Part shown: positions 3,187 through 62,220 of the stretch, piece after piece
How positions within the stretch are numbered: position 1 is the first letter of the stretch
How the letters are laid out: every line of letters begins with the position of its first letter
Source of the DNA: Shinisaurus crocodilurus
Taxonomy: Eukaryota > Chordata > Lepidosauria > Squamata > Shinisauridae
Reading direction: 5' to 3'
Assembly: GCA_021292165.1 (NCBI GenBank)
Contig: CM037876.1
Span: 35,733,075-35,797,074 of the forward strand
DNA: 64,000 nt
Notes under the pieces: generated by a model
What the model was told of the DNA's origin: nothing
Seen by the model: the letters and a program-made list of their open reading frames with translations, nothing else
The model's database searches: none
Program-made: the position numbers and the translations under genes

Positions 3187-3476
3187 AGTGACTGGGTTCA
3201 GACAACATGATAACCCACACTCAAGGGTTGGGTATGGGTTGAGTGTGGGTTGTTGTTGAAGCACGGGCTGTTGTTGAAACATGGGTTATCGTGTTGTCTG
3301 AACCCAGCTGTGCTAACAAGCCATGGCTTGTTAACCACGAACAACCCATGAAGAGAACCCATGGCTTGTTGTTGGGTTGTGAACTGTGGTTGTTCACCAT
3401 GATTTGTTATCTCAGCTGGGTTCAGACAACATGATAACCCTTGAGTGTGGGTTCATGTTCTCTGAACCCAGTCAGT
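3187..3476. mobile_element. GGTTCA-family foldback element
   Basis: It begins ACTGGGTTCAGACAACATG and ends TGAACCCAGTCAGTG. A third copy of the terminal word lies inside (TGTTGTCTGAACCCAG near 3291), followed by its inverse near 3418, so the element is a chain of inverted GGGTTCAGACAACA units. The middle holds an AACCCATGGCTTGTT-rich spacer. The same unit order, in the other orientation, occurs at 26527-26775 and 33150-33398. Confidence 0.65.
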
Positions 3477-25903: not shown

Positions 25904-26272
25904 ATATAAGGGGACTAATCGTAAGGGCCTCTGCAAGGGTACAAGAAGTAGTTAAAGGCTAATCCAAGGCTGCTTCCACACTTGCACAGTGTATAGTGCT
26001 ACAGTAAACTTGAAGTGGAATTGAAACGGTGCTTCCACATGGCACTCCATTTAGTGCTATGTCCCCCATCCTGTTCCAATGGCAACAACAAAAGTCAGTG
26101 GCGCATTACTGTGTCAGGTGTAGCAATCTAAGCAAAAACTCCAAATTAACTAAAATTAAACATTTTCTTGTTGATTTTTTAAATTAATGAAACAAAACGA
26201 GAATGGAAAAAATTAAGAAAATTAAGAAAAAGGCAAATGCCAGCTGTTAAAAAGTAATGGGGAAGGGGCTGT
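25904..26272. other. No recognised feature
   Basis: No supported gene or repeat. Confidence 0.35.
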
Positions 26273-26280
26273 ATTTAAGG

Positions 26281-26418
26281 CAGTGTTCTCCAACCTTGGG
26301 TCCCCAGATGTTTTTGGCCTACAACTCCCAGCATGCCCCAGCTGGCAGCATAGCTGGCTGGGGCATGCTGGGAGTTGTAGGCCAAAGGCATCTGTGGACC
26401 CAAGGTTGGAGAACACTT
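26281..26418. mobile_element. hAT-type hairpin MITE (CAGTGTTCTCC family), donor copy
   Basis: Starts CAGTGTTCTCCAACCTTGGG and ends GGTTGGAGAACACT with a final G-to-T change. The arms, about 62 bp, are nearly perfect inverses around a GGCAGCATAGCTGG centre. The flanks ATTTAAGG (26273-26280) and ATATAAGG (26419-26426) match at 7 of 8 bases, so this is an independent insertion here. The right duplication is also present inside the copy at 32904. Confidence 0.85.
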
Positions 26419-26526
26419 ATATAAGGACATATAGACCAGGTTTGTACGGTTGAGGAAGGAAAAGAAGCCATGTTGGTTTGGATGATATGGCAACTTGTGT
26501 GTGGCATGGGCAATTATGGAAATGAG

Positions 26527-26870
26527 GCAGCTGTCTGAACCCAACCGAGATAACAAACCAAGGTGAAAAACCCACAGTTCACAGCCCAACAACAAAGCAT
26601 GGGTTCTCTTCAAGGGTTGTTCATGGTTAACAAGCAATGTCTTGCAGCGCAGCTGGGTTCAGACAACACAATAACCCACGTTTCAAGAACAACCTACGGT
26701 TCAACAACTCACACTCAATCCATACTCAGCCCATGAGTGTGGGTTACCATGTTGTCTGAACCCAGTCAGTGTCTTGGACTGGACAGCCCTTTAAACAGAG
26801 GACATGTTCAAATAGAGGATGGTCCTCTGGCAGCCTTTCAAATAGAGGACTGACTGTCAGCAACTATTTC
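26527..26870. mobile_element. GGTTCA foldback joined to a truncated TAGGGTGG hAT piece
   Basis: TGTCTGAACCCAACC (26532), GCTGGGTTCAGACAACAC (26652) and GTTGTCTGAACCCAGTCAG (26751) reproduce the chained inverted units of 3187-3476 in the other orientation. From about 26770, CTTGGACTGGACAGCCC and CAAATAGAGGACTGACTG match the GGACAGTCCTC interior of the hAT element at 60078. Both pieces reappear unchanged at 33150-33493. Confidence 0.6.
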
Positions 26871-26904
26871 ACAGATCACTCCTTTTCCTGGTGAGTCAAT
26901 AGCT

Positions 26905-27801
26905 CTTTGCCAATCCACACATGAACATGTGTGTTGAAAGTCAGAAAAATAACTACAAACCACTTCTCAAACCAGATAGCAACACAATGGGGGAAATAAA
27001 CAGGAATGCAACAGTTCACAGAGATATCAGCTTGATTCTAGGTAATAACTGAGTGTGGTCAAGTACAGAGAAAATGCCTAGTGTGGAAGCACTCTTAAGG
27101 AAAGTGGTAACAGACATTTTCTGCAAAGAAATTCACATTTTTCAGATGCTGATGTGAAAAAGGGAGACACAGTAATGTATGAATCAACATTTCCAGTCAC
27201 AGGACTATTTCTTCAAATGATTATCGTGCACAAATCTACCTTCCAAATCTGGAATAACACCCATACCATATATTGTCCATCATCTGGTCACGCTTTCTGG
27301 ATGCATGTTTTATAAATAGTTTGTGAATACACTTGTCATAACATTGCTTACGGAGCAACCTTGTGCTGGGCTGATCCAGCCAGAAGTGATTTTGGCTATG
27401 AGAGCGCATCCTTTAGCTCCATGTGTCTTTGGCCCATGTTCTGTGGTTGAACCACTTTTATGGAGCCACCCAGACTTCATAATTACAATCTCCTCTGCCT
27501 TAGCTAATCAGCCGCTGGGAAGGAGATAATTTGCTTAATTTACTGAATAAGCATGTAGTAGAGTTTTGTGGATACTCCTAAGGCAAAAAGGTAATCACGA
27601 AAAACAAAAGCGACCCCCCCACACACATTTATATCAATTGCCAGTATGAAACCGAAGACAGTAACAGTGCTAATTGTATAGAGTGTTTTTACATGGAACA
27701 CTTTTTACTTGTGCTTTAACAGCAAAACAATAATTTTGCTTCAGTAGCACTGATAGTCTAGGAGAGGTAATGGGAAGCTAACCCCATGCCCCCGATATTC
27801 A
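26905..27801. other. No recognised feature
   Basis: Unique-looking DNA starting exactly where the 624-bp duplication with 32904-33527 stops (after 26904). Confidence 0.5.
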
Positions 27802-27803
27802 TA

Positions 27804-28058
27804 CAGGCAGTCTCCAGGTTATTATGAATGAGTTCCGTTCTTAAGAATGTCTTTAAGTCAAATTTGTATGTAAGTCGGAACTGCATCGCGTTCTGTATAT
27901 TAAAACCGGCATTTACGCAAATTGCGTAAATTACACAAATTGCGTAGTATACTACGCTATGCACTCTATGTAAACGACGTAGCACCGGGGAACCCAGAAG
28001 TCCGTTCTTAAGTATGGGTTGTCTGTAAGTCAGATGTTCTTAACTCGGGTACTGCCTG
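27804..28058. mobile_element. Second pogo/Tigger-like palindromic MITE family
   Basis: Starts CAGGCAGTCTCCAGGTTATT and ends CTCGGGTACTGCCTG, flanked by TA (27802-27803 and 28059-28060). The inner arms (GAATGAGTTCCGTTCTTAAG, TTGTATGTAAGTCGGAACTG) match the ends of known Tigger-type elements. The centre contains a tight AAATTGCGTAAATTACACAAATTGCG-like inverted motif. No transposase. Confidence 0.85.
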
Positions 28059-28060
28059 TA

Positions 28061-29989
28061 TTTGGAATTAGTCATGTTTGGATGAGTTCAACAAATTTGC
28101 CTCAGTGAAGAAGTTGTGGGAACTTCATTTTCCTACTTTTGCTGGGTAATAATTGTTTCAGAAATCTGCTCATGAATGCACTTATTATCATATAAGATAA
28201 TTTCTGCGTAAAAGAAAAGTTCTGTCATTAGGTAGAGTTCTTTACTTAATAATATACTTTTTAAATTAAAATGGAGTTATATCACAAACTTGTCATACAG
28301 CTGTGCAATAAACTGCACTATCATGGGATATGTTCAGTTTACCATATACACTGCATGCTTTCTTCACACCAACCGCAGAGCAGGGTTTCTTGTTTTGACA
28401 CCTGAGCAGGGTCTCCATTTTAAAATCAGATCTGCTAAGTTGGGGGTTGGCTCTCTCAAGAGCAGTGCATCACCCAAAAAACAATCTGGCACAAGATCAG
28501 CCTTCAGCACTTTTGTTACTGTGAATTTCTATAAATAATTAGAAAATGTTGATATTCATTCCCCTGGTGGTGGTTCACATTCACCAAAATCCCCAGCATA
28601 GGAAGCAATTGATGCAGAGCTTCTCTGCCTTGTTACTATGCTGCTGTCAATGGCCCAGGCTGACCTAACTCCACTGCAGGATGACCAGAAAGCACCCTGG
28701 TCAGTGAAATACTATATGAATATGTACATGTTGCCCATGACAGGCTGTAGTCTCTTCTTCTGGGATATTTATGTAGGTTCTCTAACTCCTCATTCTCTTG
28801 TACTAATACATTTGACATTGGGGGGGTAGGCCTAGGCAGTATGAAAGGGTCAGCACTCAGCAGTGATCAGTGCTTAAAGTAAAACAAGATGCCATAAATG
28901 AGGGAAACTGAAGACATGGATCTGGGAGATCTCCGGAAACTGTTTATATGTTTCTGCAGTGGCATGGTATTCACTTACCTGTGGCTTCTCCCTGTGTGTG
29001 AAAACCAAGTGGGTTGAACATGGAATCTTCCCACCTGGCCTGGCCTGGTAGTTCCCTTCATCACAGTCTCCAGCACTTCCTGTTTTCAGAATTAAACACT
29101 GGCTTCACTCTGAAGTATTGCAGGGACCTTATTTTTAGCTATATATATATATATAGCTATATCCCTCCTCCCCCCTCACAGCTGGCGCGGAAAGAACCGT
29201 GCTGGCTGCTAATCTGAGGTCACAAAAGTGGGTGTTTAGTGGGTGTTCCAGGGGGCGGGGAGGAGAGGAGAGGAAACTGGCGTCACCAAGATACGATGTA
29301 TCCTGCTGGTGCCTCAGCCTCTTTCCCTCCCCCTCCAAAGTGCTGCAGTTGGGCAGCCGAGATCGGCTGTCTAGCAGTTTTGCACAGTGGGAGGAGAAGG
29401 GAGGCGACCTTCACCTCTGCACTCCTCCCACTCTGCATAGGATGCCCATAATCCTCTGCGTTCGGGGGGGGGGGTTATAGGCATCCCCATAGGACTGTGC
29501 CCTTAACTATGTTAATAATTGACCTTGATGTGACTGTCCTTGGCACTAAAGGATGAGAGAACGTTCCAGTACGGTTGTGGCTTAATTTATTAAGTTTGAG
29601 ATGACTAGCACTGAGTAACTCGAAGGTGTTTTCCATCTCCATCTTTCTCATAGTCTCTGAATTACATCACAATGGAAAGAAGCCAAAAAATACACCCTAG
29701 TTTTCTGGCAACTGAATGCTGAAAACTAGAGACCTGAAGCATATTACGTACTTTGCAGGAAATTCCCAGACTTTTATTCTAAGACAGGCAGGCACCATAC
29801 AAACTAATCTGAGGAGATAAAAATCTAATCTGTTTTGCATAGATGGCAAAAAGAAAAGAAAAAATAAATAAATGACTGTAGTTACCTTTCCCATAAATCA
29901 AGCAATTTTCTAGATTTCCTCTGTAGATTACTACTGCTGTGGCTGCTACTACTAGCACTTCTACAACACCCATTCTAGCAGCTATACCA
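28061..29989. other. Mostly featureless, with a short (TA)n
   Basis: AT-rich to 29100. A palindromic AGCTATATATATATATATAGCT block spans about 29137-29158. The segment 29160-29480 is more GC-rich and may be an unrecognised MITE, since TTATTTTTAGCTATAT and a G-run-TTATAGG word frame it. No gene is supported. Confidence 0.4.
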
Positions 29990-30215
29990 TTTTATTTTTT
30001 TAGTCCTTCAGTTTTGTGTATAAATGTGTCAATGCATTTTTAGATCTTTGCCCTGCTGCTGGTTTTTATTCTAGTTTTATTCTGTTTTAAACTTTGAAAG
30101 GTTTTACATTATGTTTTATTGTGTTGTATTTTAGGGTTTTAATTTCTGTGAACCACTCAGAAAAGATATTGGGTAGTATAGAAATTTAATAAGTAGATAA
30201 ATAAAATAAATAAAA
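29990..30215 (+). mobile_element. L2-like LINE 3' tail
   Basis: T-rich text leads to TTTCTGTGAACCACTCAGAA, ATTGGGTAGTATAGAAATTT and AATAAGTAGATAAATAAAAT. This is the usual 3' end of L2-like LINEs, which terminate in short A-rich repeats. Only the non-coding 3' region remains. Confidence 0.6.
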
Positions 30216-31014
30216 CATAAAATAGTGTAATCTTGCCCACTAAAATGTGTGATGCACCAGCTGTTGGACTGCAGGGGAAAACTGTTCACACAGAAGCCAT
30301 TTTGCACACATGGTTCCCCATTAAGTTGGGGAAGCCTGCTCAAGCTCATGTAATGCTTCTAGCTCGATCAGATAATCAGAATAAACACAAAAGGGAAGAA
30401 ACCTGGAATTCTGATTTGTTTTAGAACCACACCTCCCTATGGTAAAAGAAAAGTTTCTCTTCTGAAGTCAGTGAATCAGGTGTCATATTATTCAAACCAC
30501 TTGCCCATATACACAACCCAATAACCCTAGGGACAAGGAAACAGCATCAATCGTATTTTCCCTTCAATGGTCAGGTGGTCCATGTTATGATAAATTTCAG
30601 AAACACATATAATGTTGGCATTTACTGCTAATTCTTAACCTTTTTGTGGGGCGGGGAATCAGTGCAAAATGTCAAAACCCCTGACCTTTACCGGTAAATC
30701 TGACTACCATCAAGTGCCTATGGCTACCTAATTTCACCTCCTTTCTACCATTTACTAGTGAATCTTGACATTAAAAAAGGCACACTGGTAAATGTCTAAA
30801 ACAATTGTATTTGGCAATTGCCAGTAAATTTCAAGAACCACCAAAAGCTTTTGAGTAATGACATTTTATTTTCATTTTGATTGTTTCATTGTTTACCATG
30901 TGTGTATGTATGTACGTTTGTGTATCTATATCTTTATATATATTTCTCAGCATTTACTAAGGAAGCTTGGTAAATAACAAGCTTGAGTACACAATTATTC
31001 CTGACAATTACACA
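30216..31014. other. No recognised feature
   Basis: No supported gene or repeat. Confidence 0.4.
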
Positions 31015-31145
31015 GTGGGACTTACTTCTAAGTAAAAATGCACTGTATGGTTGCAATACTATCCACACTTACCTAGGAGTAAGCCCCATCACTGAACATA
31101 GTGGGACTTACTTCTGAGCAAACATGCATAGGATTGTGCTGTAAA
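31015..31145. mobile_element. Foldback MITE (GTGGGACTTACTTCT ends)
   Basis: CAGTGGGACTTACTTCTAAGTA (31013-31034) and TAGTGGGACTTACTTCTGAG (31101-31119) surround an inverted TTACCTAGGAGTAAGCCCC block and the terminal word CATGCATAGGATTGTG. It is related to the GGATTGCA family at 16978. Partial copies lie near 39770 and 54300. Confidence 0.55.
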
Positions 31146-31184
31146 TATTCTTTAGGAGAGGCCATCATTCAGTAGTCAAATGTC

Positions 31185-31345
31185 CCAGGATCATTCACTG
31201 TCATCATTCTCCAGGTAAAAAGATCACAGATTGAAGGTGCTGGGAAAGATCTTTGCCTGGGACCTTGCAGAGCCACTGCCAGTCAGAAAGAACATGACTG
31301 GGCTAGACAAAACAATAGACTTTCTTGGCATAAGGAAACTTTCTT
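31185..31345 (+). mobile_element. tRNA-Ala-type SINE, 3' part only
   Basis: AAAGATCTTTGCCTGGGACC, AGAGCCACTGCCAGTCAG and TGGGCTAGACAAAACAATAG align in order with 36300-36508, and TTGGCATAAGGAAAC is the tail word. The polymerase III head is missing. Confidence 0.65.
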
Positions 31346-31359
31346 TTAATTTTGTGAAT

Positions 31360-31645
31360 GGGCCCCGGGATGCCCGGAGCGGCTGTTTGTCCCTGCAGGC
31401 TGGAGCGGCGGCGGCTCCGGCCGCTCTGGGCTGCCGTCTCTGTGGGGACCCTGTGGGACGGCCGCCCGCTGTTCTGACGGCACGGTGACCGCGCGCGGCA
31501 GGGGCTTACCCCGCTACCGACCGTGGTCACTTTCCGTGGGTCCCGCCCGCGGCTGTCCCGCGGGGGCACCTCCAGTCGGCGTGCACACGACATGGGAACC
31601 GCGGGGGAGCAGTGCTCCCCCGCAGTTCCCGTGTCGTGTGAACCG
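31360..31645. repeat. CpG-rich segment ending in a near-perfect hairpin
   Basis: Very GC-rich with many CpG. At 31584-31640 the sequence CACACGACATGGGAACC then GCGGGGGAGC pairs with GCTCCCCCGC then GTTCCCGTGTCGTGTG over a 2-3 base loop. The outer word GTCGTGTGAACC matches the ends of the GGTTCA foldback family, suggesting a GC-rich member of it. Opposing long open frames here are composition effects. Confidence 0.55.
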
Positions 31646-31648
31646 GCC

Positions 31649-31653
<5 letters not shown>

Positions 31654-31679
<26 letters not shown>

Positions 31680-31705
31680 CCTGTGTGTGTGTACATGTAC
31701 ATGCG
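31654..31705 (+). repeat. (CT)n then (GT)n microsatellite
   Basis: About 13 CT units run into CCCTGTGTGTGTGTACATGTACATG. Confidence 0.9.
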
Positions 31706-32895
31706 TGAGGAGGGCCTGCGAGGGGAGCTAAAAATGAGAGAAAGGAGAGGCACCACGCACGCACCCATAAACTGGGAAGCTGAACTTCACATTGATTTGA
31801 AACAACCAGCCATATCTTTGGCTTCAGGCCTTTAGCTCTACTTTGTTTCCTCAGGCAAATTTTCTAGATGCAGGAGGAACCAATGAACTTAAGTTATGAA
31901 ATATGAAAGCTGGAAAGATCCCTCGAGAACTTTCCCCTGAAGCATCGTTCCAACTCATAGTTTACACTTCTTTGTTTTGTGCGCGTGTATGAATGAAATA
32001 ATTTTCCTGGTACTTTGGCACAACTTTGCCTTTCTGTTAACACACTCAGATGACTCATAATTAGAAAGAGCAAGCACACTTTGTTTGCTCTGTAGTGGTT
32101 ACGCTGAAACTCATTAAGTGTCACTGCATCCAAGTGCACAGTGTTTTATGTAAACAAGACCTCTGAAGAAGGTATAGTTGTGTAATGAAGATGAAAAGGA
32201 AAGCGGCTGACTAATGTTAGGACAAATTAATAATGCCCATGTCAAGTTCTGAAAGAAGAAAGCATTTGCTGTGCCATAATTGCACATTTCAAAGTAGAAT
32301 AGGAGAGAAGTTGCTAGCAGGAGGTTCGTCTAGGGGTAAGACTCACACAGAGAAGGTTAACTACTGATGTTAAAAATATCAAAATGGGTCAGCTCTAGTT
32401 CTGAAATTGTACTTTCTGAAATTAGTAATCATCACACTTGACTAGTCAATGAAAGTTTGGGGAACTTTTACAAACATCCTAAAGAATCTGTGGCAAATCT
32501 CAATTAAGCTTACCTGGGCTACAGCCTGACACACTGTTTTTAAGGCAGGAAATTCATACCACACTCTTAAAATGCTCTGGTTTTGCTGCACTCAGGCTGC
32601 ACCCTTGTCCCCTTAGGTACAATCCAGACTCTCCAATCCCTCTCTTTTCTTGGACTGATAAACCCTGCTGCAGGCCTGTGTTTAAGCACCTTCCCAGTTA
32701 GGCGTATAAAACCCTGTTAATTAATCCGTTAGTTACAAAAATTGTGTGGAACATGCCAAAGTTCAACAGACAATGCAGCCAGCTTTGTTCTATGATGGTC
32801 TTTGCTGTTTTAACCTACTCTTTTAGGAAAACTGTGAAAAAGAGCCCTTAAAAGCATGGGTCACTGACACCTCACTGTTAGGACCACCAAGTGTG
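31706..32895. other. No recognised gene; one repeat-like segment
   Basis: Around 32640-32740, CTGCTGCAGGCCTGTGTTTA and GTATAAAACCCTGTTAATTA resemble 55490-55545 (CTGCTGCAGGTCTGTATTAA, GTATAAAACCCAATTAC). This may be an unclassified repeat with a TATA-like box, possibly an LTR piece. The rest shows nothing. Confidence 0.4.
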
Positions 32896-32903
32896 TTCTA
32901 GAT

Positions 32904-33595
32904 CAGTGTTCTCCAACCTTGGGTCCCCAGATGTTTTTGGCCTACAACTCCCAGCATGCCCCAGCTGGCAGCATAGCTGGCTGGGGCATGCTGGGAGTTG
33001 TAGGCCAAAGGCATCTGTGGACCCAAGGTTGGAGAACACTTATATAAGGACATATAGACCAGGTTTGTACAGTTGAGGAAGGAAAAGAAGCCATGTTGGT
33101 TTGGATGATATGGCAACTTGTGTGTGGCATGGGCAATTATGGAAATGAGGCAGCTGTCTGAACCCAACCGAGATAACAAACCAAGGTGAAAAACCCACAG
33201 TTCACAGCCCAACAACAAAGCGTGGGTTCTCTTCAAGGGTTGTTCATGGTTAACAAGCAATGTCTTGCAGCGCAGCTGGGTTCAGACAACACAATAACCC
33301 ACGTTTCAAGAACAACCTACGGTTCAACAACTCACACTCAACCCATACTCAGCCCATGAGTGTGGGTTACCATGTTGTCTGAACCCAGTCAGTGTCTTGG
33401 ACTGGACAGCCCTTTAAACAGAGGACATGTTCAAATAGAGGATGGTCCTCTGGCAGCCTTTCAAATAGAGGACTGACTGTCAGCAACTATTTCACAGATC
33501 ACTCCTTTTCCTGGTGAGTCAATAGCTACGCTGGCTGGGGCATGCTGGGAGTTGTAGGCCAAAAACATCTGGGGACCCAAGGTTGGAGAACACTG
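32904..33595. mobile_element. Composite hAT element carrying captured flank DNA, 692 bp
   Basis: It starts CAGTGTTCTCCAACCTTGGG, ends GGTTGGAGAACACTG and is flanked by the identical 8-mer TTCTAGAT (32896-32903, 33596-33603). Bases 32904-33527 match 26281-26904 with 3 substitutions and no indel. They cover the hairpin MITE, its right target duplication ATATAAGG, unique-looking DNA, a GGTTCA foldback and a truncated hAT piece. The last 68 bp (33528-33595) are a clean hAT right arm not present at 26905. No transposase is encoded, so movement must have relied on an enzyme supplied in trans. Confidence 0.9.
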
Positions 33596-33603
33596 TTCTA
33601 GAT

Positions 33604-33922
33604 AAAGGCTTCTGTGTTCCAAGAGAGTGGGCATTTGTGGCTGGCCCTGGAAGAGATGGCACCCTGGCTTGCATGCTGCTGCTGTAAGGGGGTGTGGCTT
33701 GGGCTTTATAAGCCAGCTCCATGCCCCTCTGCAGCTGTGGTTGGTCGGTTGGTTGACATTGGAGCAAGGAAGCTTGCGATCAGTTGGGCCTATTGCAGCC
33801 TGCATTTGGAGCAACTGATTGTGGACTGTTCTGCTGGGCCCAATGCAGCCTGACCTGGCGGGCCTAGCTCATAGTGTGACCCCACTTTGGGGTCTTGCAT
33901 GGACTCAGTGCAAGGCCCCCCT
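33604..33922 (+). other. Promoter-like GC-rich DNA of unknown origin
   Basis: GGGGGTGTGGCTTGGGCTTT followed by ATAAGCCAGC at about 33688-33717 looks like a GC-box plus TATA arrangement, as in an LTR promoter. No coding frame with known motifs follows, and I cannot define its ends. Confidence 0.3.
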
Positions 33923-37065: not shown

Positions 37066-37122
37066 CCAGTGTTCTCCAACCTTGGGTCCCCAGATGTTTT
37101 TGGTCTACAACTCCCAGCAAGC
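37066..37122 (+). mobile_element. Half of a CAGTGTTCTCC hAT MITE
   Basis: CCAGTGTTCTCCAACCTTGG, then CAGATGTTTTTGGTCTAC and CAACTCCCAGCA, is one arm only. The other arm is missing, either by deletion or internal truncation. Confidence 0.75.
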
Positions 37123-37291
37123 CTCATGTGTGAGGTATTTTCTGTTTACTTACATTACTGATCCGAGTGATATCTGGAAGCACCACTGTGTGCTTAGAAT
37201 CCATACTTTCCAGAACTGCAGGCACATAATAAAATGTGTACCATGGGTTTGGGGATCCTGATGAATGGGGTGAACTCTGATAAGGTAGGAA

Positions 37292-62121: not shown

Positions 62122-62220
62122 CAGTGTTCTCCAACCTTGGGTCCCCAGATGTTTTTGGCCTGGGGCATGCTGGGAGTTGTAGGCCAAAAACATATGGGGA
62201 CCCAAGGTTGGAGAACACTG
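62122..62220. mobile_element. CAGTGTTCTCC hAT MITE, internally deleted, 99 bp
   Basis: Starts CAGTGTTCTCCAACCTTGGG and ends CAAGGTTGGAGAACACTG. The flanks GTGTAGAC (62114-62121) and GTCTAGAC (62221-62228) match at 7 of 8 bases. Part of the left arm and the loop are missing relative to 26281-26418. Confidence 0.85.

Follow-up and report, generated by a model that had tools for sequence, protein, structure and literature searches.

How does a miniature inverted-repeat transposable element (MITE) come to hold, between its own two ends, the DNA that adjoins a sister element 6.6 kb away? The question is raised by a 692-bp element with hAT-type ends (32904-33595, the 33 kb unit) in a 64,000-nucleotide stretch of the Shinisaurus crocodilurus genome (GenBank assembly GCA_021292165.1, contig CM037876.1, positions 35,733,075 to 35,797,074 of the forward strand), which we call the window. 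The answer that we favour, with a probability of roughly 0.6, is that this element is a MITE which was broken at its hairpin centre, was repaired in place by copying a second MITE at 26281-26418 together with the next 486 bases, and rejoined its own right half by means of the short word AGCT. Because the donor at 26 kb remains in place, this is copying rather than movement. The original prediction for this locus, which proposed that a hAT element had captured its donor's flanking DNA, is partly supported. The features on which the argument draws are the following:

26273..26280, + strand: 8-bp target duplication to the left of the 26 kb MITE, ATTTAAGG, with the nnnTAnnn form seen in the family (sequence)
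26281..26418, + strand: donor palindromic hAT-type MITE, ending in CACTT and not CACTG; 26281-26417 folds into a single long stem-loop hairpin, z -17.6 (alignment, fold)
26419..26426, + strand: target duplication on the right side of the 26 kb MITE, ATATAAGG, a copy of which lies in the 33 kb unit (sequence, alignment)
26427..26904, + strand: flank of the donor that recurs as a copy in the 33 kb unit, with AGCT at its end, 26901-26904 (alignment, copy searches, junction comparison)
32896..32903, + strand: target duplication to the left of the 33 kb MITE, TTCTAGAT (sequence, alignment)
32904..33041, + strand: left part of the 33 kb unit, a copy of the entire 26 kb hairpin (138/138 identity); the outer left arm may instead derive from the recipient, which would be indistinguishable from a copied arm
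33042..33049, + strand: copied inner target duplication ATATAAGG, a tag of the donor locus (alignment)
33050..33527, + strand: copy, with 3 substitutions, of the DNA that flanks the 26 kb MITE, ending at the AGCT junction, 33524-33527 (alignment)
33528..33595, + strand: right half of a MITE from the palindrome centre, the recipient's own in the favoured reading (alignment, family comparison)
33596..33603, + strand: target duplication on the right side of the 33 kb MITE, TTCTAGAT (sequence, alignment)

Paired copies and the direction of copying

Positions 26281-26904 and 32904-33527 align at an offset of 6623 over 624 bp without a gap and with three mismatches (26448, 26599 and 26719), and the similarity breaks off sharply at either edge of this block. 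Exact 8-bp repeats of TTCTAGAT bound the 33 kb unit. The 26 kb hairpin is bounded by ATTTAAGG and ATATAAGG, which agree at 7 of 8 bases and both have TA at positions 4-5; for two 8-mers, a match of at least 7 of 8 has a computed chance of 3.8e-4. Inside the 33 kb unit we observed ATATAAGG again and not ATTTAAGG: it is only the right-hand duplication of the 26 kb hairpin that recurs there. Since the 26 kb hairpin is duplicated on both sides, and at 33 kb its right duplication is a mere internal passenger, the comparison supports the direction from 26 kb to 33 kb, with the former locus donor-like and the latter derived. The left hairpin of the 33 kb unit is identical to 26281-26418 at 138 of 138 positions, and the next best family member, among the scored candidates, reaches 96% of the 26 kb hairpin over 137 bp. 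The right terminus of that hairpin reads CACTT where the family has CACTG, and the changed terminal base is present in both copies. The internal DNA of the unit is 99.4% identical to 26425-26904, and its right arm is real and has no counterpart at 26 kb. The original prediction had named the collinearity, the exact outer duplication, the hairpin's own target duplications with the right one inside the derived unit, the donor-like status of the 26 kb locus with its flank carried along, and the clean right arm missing from the donor; the alignment bears out all of these.

That two nearly identical sequences lie so near each other would also fit an assembly artefact or a segmental duplication, and duplicated blocks are known elsewhere on contig C1. 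We consider this highly improbable. The tested flanks (26000-26280, 26880-27300, 32600-32903 and 33604-33900) are unrelated between the two sites except for the copied end, so the pair does not look like a segmental duplication, and the ends of the copy coincide with transposon ends and perfect duplications. Moreover, each copy departs from the majority of a repeat at its own site: at 26599, 20 of the 28 other copies of an old repeat side with the 26 kb base, and at 26719, 25 of 28 side with the 33 kb base. The two copies hence seem each to have changed on their own after separation. The old repeat in question is a common element of about 240 bp with inverted parts, which lies in the captured body at 33155-33394 and again in the window at 3189-3428; it is 86-89% identical to its other copies, at 38 further scored places.

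Similarity searches of the genome, in which the best 40 candidates were scored per query, bear on whether the 692-bp unit represents a MITE family of the ordinary kind, with the 26 kb copy as a truncated member, as might be read from the left 624 bp common to both copies. The full 692-bp query matches itself and the 26 kb locus (84 rows; best 40 of 10,188 candidates), the remaining rows being the common old body repeat and short arm matches; no other full unit was found in the genome among those candidates. The first 113 bp past the hairpin match two places at 99-100%, the next at 89% over half the length (best 40 of 41). With 26780-27100 as query, the complete match is at 26 kb only, the 33 kb locus matches the first 125 bases, and the other scored places hold only the old repeat, ending at about 26849-26857 (best 40 of 1511). 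The original prediction had pointed out that many full units would speak for an ordinary family; none besides the 33 kb one turned up among the scored candidates, and the body was found there in the 26 kb and 33 kb copies only. Given also that the 26 kb hairpin has a target duplication of its own, an ordinary family has very little probability.

The palindromic hAT-type MITE family

Palindromes of about 135 bp make up the family to which the hairpin belongs (range 134-141 across 28 loci, L033-L060, which were picked for similarity to the whole hairpin and hence give no rate). Its exact 49-bp arm occurs 24,549 times in forward and 24,567 times in reverse orientation, that is 49,116 copies in the 2.19 Gb genome, and a 137-bp hairpin query returns 1613 candidates (best 40 scored). 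Across the 28 loci the target duplications are 7 or 8 of 8 alike in 24 and exact in 20, and TA stands at positions 4-5 in 23 of those 24; this nnnTAnnn form we take to be a Buster-like target preference. MITEs of the hAT superfamily have short terminal inverted repeats starting with CAG and 8-bp duplications, and are too short to code for a transposase. The present family shares the CAG-type short inverted repeats, the non-coding size and the 8-bp duplications (8 of 8 at the 33 kb unit), and the arm counts and hairpin fold mark it as a short inverted-repeat element at high copy number. Unlike those MITEs in general, it is a near-perfect palindrome from end to end, which would give it a fragile centre.

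Clear duplications are absent at the detected ends of three of the 28 loci, L042 (5/8), L043 (6/8) and L045 (4/8). L042 (1500-1634) and a further locus, L090 (1265-1399), are complete hairpins with poorly matched flanking 8-mers, and the flanks of L090 are unrelated; both hairpins are possibly exchange products between MITEs. The window holds another family MITE at 62122-62220, with a left arm of 40 bp, a right arm of 61 bp and the duplications GTGTAGAC/GTCTAGAC, and a solitary left arm at 37067-37126 after CTCTAACC, with no right end within about 5 kb.

The junction and the source of the right half

In the 33 kb unit the copied flank meets the right half at the palindrome centre, with 4 bp (AGCT) common to both sides. 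The original prediction had remarked that ATAGCT occurs both at 26899-26904 and in the hairpin loop and took this as favouring a template switch that copied an arm. Both occurrences are there and the junction does have microhomology, but the continuations differ: the right half of the 33 kb unit reads AGCT-ACGCTGGCTGGGG, the 26 kb loop ATAGCT-GGCTGGGG, and the usable word is AGCT. Nor is the hairpin's own arm supported as the source. The reverse complement of the 26 kb left arm is AGCTATGCTGCCAGCTGGGG; a copy from it was rejected, as the inner bases differ and a substitution and a 3-base gap would be needed. The agreement of the 62 outer bp of the right half with that arm is uninformative, the family consensus agreeing equally. 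The right half equals the family consensus with a centre that differs from the 26 kb hairpin, whose loop is kept in the copied left hairpin. Two family members, L051 and L085, read CCAGCCAGCTACGCTGGCTGGGG, an exact fit to the right half; their centre is of the type CCAGCCAGCTACGCTGGCTGG, and the word that it has in common with the donor flank is again AGCT. Because the centre of these members fits exactly and the loop and arm of the 26 kb hairpin do not, the right half is most simply taken to come from another family member cut at its centre.

The other source that the original prediction had allowed for was a second nearby MITE acting as the right end. In such a composite or end-bypass transposition, transposase would have passed over the CACTT right end at 26 kb and used a half MITE past 26904, and the right terminal base that departs from the family in both copies would suit this. 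End bypass has a precedent in P elements (PMC8277862). However, no half-arm is seen at 26904 in the donor locus. Within 26905-32903 of this assembly BLAST (E 1e-3) found no match to the hairpin family, and that interval shows no usable right end past the donor element; 26905-27100 has no other genomic match (best 40 of 1511 candidates). A half MITE starting exactly at the centre would have had to pre-exist on another allele. We keep end bypass as a rival; it asks for more than the repair of an element already resident at 33 kb does, and we judge it improbable.

Proposed repair in place

The most economical reading remains the repair of a resident element. A plain MITE would have sat at TTCTAGAT, 33 kb, and a double-strand break would have opened its palindrome centre. 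The broken left end would then have found its homologue in the left arm of the upstream MITE, which lies 6.6 kb off and is intact and close, and paired with it. Copying from there would account for what the unit now holds, namely the hairpin, then the 26 kb MITE's right-hand target duplication, then a further 478 bp of flank. The copy stops at AGCT, a word also found at family centres and followed in the unit by the clean right half; pairing at AGCT would be the reason for the join.

A different order of events, capture followed by a jump, is a less probable rival. Here a template switch during replication would have built the chimera, whether at the 26 kb MITE or at some other place, before transposase inserted it whole at TTCTAGAT. 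The perfect outer target duplications suit a fresh insertion, and the family looks very young, with its 49,116 exact arms. A similar scheme, the FoSTeST model, has been proposed for multicopy Pack-TIRs, which are elements with internal DNA between the two ends of one terminal-inverted-repeat (TIR) element (PMC8277862). Yet the unit is single-copy within the searches (best 40 candidates scored), two events are needed as against one for repair in place, and the start of the joined half at the palindrome centre is not accounted for by capture and jump as such. We regard this alternative as unlikely.

A second build of the same kind and rejected candidates

One locus among the 28, L050 on contig C7, shows a comparable build: GGTTAGAG, a full MITE, CTTTAAGG with 23 bp of flank, a half hairpin from the centre, and GGTTAGAG again. 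The 28-base flank piece occurs at two places in the genome (at most 2 mismatches allowed), L050 itself and a site 701 kb off on the same contig, where it has 1 mismatch and lies directly behind a MITE that is bounded by duplications of its own, CTTGAAGG/CTTTAAGG. The join has GCT in common and is at the same centre position as the 33 kb join. End bypass does not explain this locus more simply.

Other candidates were set aside. L008 (670-1335) looked like a capture, with outer duplications CAATAGTG and about 665 bp inside. We dropped it because its insert is repeated at high copy number (41 rows at 93-100%, with its own row counted; best 40 of 2406 candidates) and has GGGGC on both sides; it looks like a long-terminal-repeat-type insertion into a MITE. 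L052 was rejected because at least 116 bp are duplicated locally there, and L018, a half arm, has no mate within 3.07 kb upstream.

Arm loss and return points across the genome

For arm loss we took 20 loci on C1 with one exact 49-bp arm, starting from the first listed and skipping two two-arm loci; three pairs among them were duplicates, which leaves 17 distinct loci. Selection by the 49-bp arm would have allowed ends further in or out to be seen. One arm is clearly shortened or lost (at most 51 of 68 positions; at most 17 in five cases) in 6 of the 17, which is no family rate since the sample favours damaged elements. The shorter arm keeps 51 of 68 positions in L084, 17 in L078, 12 in L094 and 11 in L087, and L075 and L092 have no second arm within the 1.4 kb examined. 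In all six the surviving arm extends to 65-68 of 68 positions, i.e. to the centre. L076, L077 and L089 have arms of 56, a small loss about the centre. The outer repeats are still exact in L094 and 6/8 in L087. For three MITE loci on C1 a second copy, alike also in the DNA next to the element, lies some 306-310 kb farther along (L077/L080, L078/L081, L079/L082), which reflects either a segmental duplication or an unmerged assembly haplotype.

We further counted, genome-wide, the places where a MITE end is followed after 8-17 bp by a family 10-mer, with a reversed control. The centre-adjacent 10-mer gives 166 places (75+91; control 0+0) and the left-arm 10-mer 73 (29+44; control 0+0). Of 45 centre texts (44 distinct, about one per array or cluster, drawn from 100 of the 166), 29 have TA at the target-duplication place. 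Judged by eye, most left-arm texts resemble insertions at a TCTAGATG- or TCCAGA-like target in a related arm, many carrying GGACTACAACTCC, unlike the GGCC of this family, and about five resemble returns to a left arm of this very family.

Of the 100 listed centre places, many form tandem runs spaced about 69-79 bp, in which a MITE end, a few bases and a half hairpin from the centre are repeated. Such satellite-like half-MITE arrays lie at G000:C1:313719643-313720617, C4:284144003-284144239, C6:696495-696735 and C2:18259394-18259563.

Several points tell against repair from a break at the centre. That a plain MITE once stood at 33 kb is inferred from this one assembly, and a 4-bp match at a given point arises by chance about once in 256. 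At L050 the loop of the full hairpin differs from that of the donor; because L050 has a full hairpin without the donor's loop, copying from the donor 701 kb away would have started in the right arm, that donor can have supplied no more than the right end and the flank, and two switches would be needed. The bias of the arm-loss sample belongs here too. The right-arm 10-mer is found at 82 places (43+39; reversed control 1+1), in many cases as a direct join that lacks a target duplication, with TA at the target-duplication place in 17 of 37 texts (from the 82, array variants dropped). Returns are therefore not confined to the centre, which in the raw count is favoured about 2-fold over the right arm but not exclusively, and part of the 166 centre places may be nested insertions.

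With these points in mind, we put forward tentatively, at somewhat less than even odds, a more general idea: that palindromic MITEs of this family are self-targeting copy machines, in which a break at the centre, thousands of sister MITEs as landing pads, outward copying into unique DNA and return by microhomology would yield donor-tagged duplications, and repeated returns would seed half-hairpin tandem arrays with periods of about 70-80 bp. If so, the copied target duplication would identify the donor, and each event would show which element was repaired, from where, over what length and at which point the copying returned; with its 49,116 exact arms, the genome would offer a natural record of break repair at palindromes. 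Such elements would then be a source of new DNA duplications. We found no report of donor-tagged MITE duplications of this kind in searches of open-licence full text.

Comparison with known systems

Rearrangement of palindromes through a break at the centre was reportedly described by Cunningham et al. in 2003. In humans, translocations at palindromic AT-rich repeats (PATRR) involve breaks at the palindrome centre (PMC4255720). The 33 kb case would resemble these known centre-break rearrangements in a break at the symmetry centre and repair with little homology, and would differ from them in that the repair added DNA of a sister element and was not a mere centre deletion or joining of chromosomes.

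The closest parallel is with the Pack-TIRs of Tan et al. 2021 (PMC8277862). These comprise 370 elements, 208 of them hAT, mostly single-copy and often near the parent; they show microhomology and inward breakpoints, and gap filling without transposition is argued for. The 33 kb unit is like the single-copy ones in its hAT-type ends on both sides with internal DNA between them, the unique parent 6.6 kb away, the microhomology at the junction, the internal breakpoint and the single copy. The identity to the parent is 99.4%, above the 90% asked of a unique parent (its ends match two places only among the best 40 candidates, its middle being the old repeat at 86-89%), and microhomology at the breakpoint is seen both in the window (AGCT) and in L050 (GCT). 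Unlike in the published cases, the parent here lies next to another member of the element's own MITE family, and both that MITE and its target duplication are included in the copy. The screen dropped parents with a transposable element within 100 bp, and the paper admits that parents linked to such elements may be missed (PMC8277862); the present parent lies directly behind one, and this class of transposon-made duplications thus falls outside that screen by design. FoSTeST likewise involves a template switch from a TIR element into other DNA; it differs in that it then moves its product (PMC8277862), whereas at 33 kb the sequence shows a copy. Since the copy includes the sister MITE and its target duplication, it is likely that copying began by long MITE-MITE homology on one side. 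Taken together, the 33 kb case likely works like the published gap filling of Pack-TIRs, to which it would add an entry led by homology and a tag of the donor.

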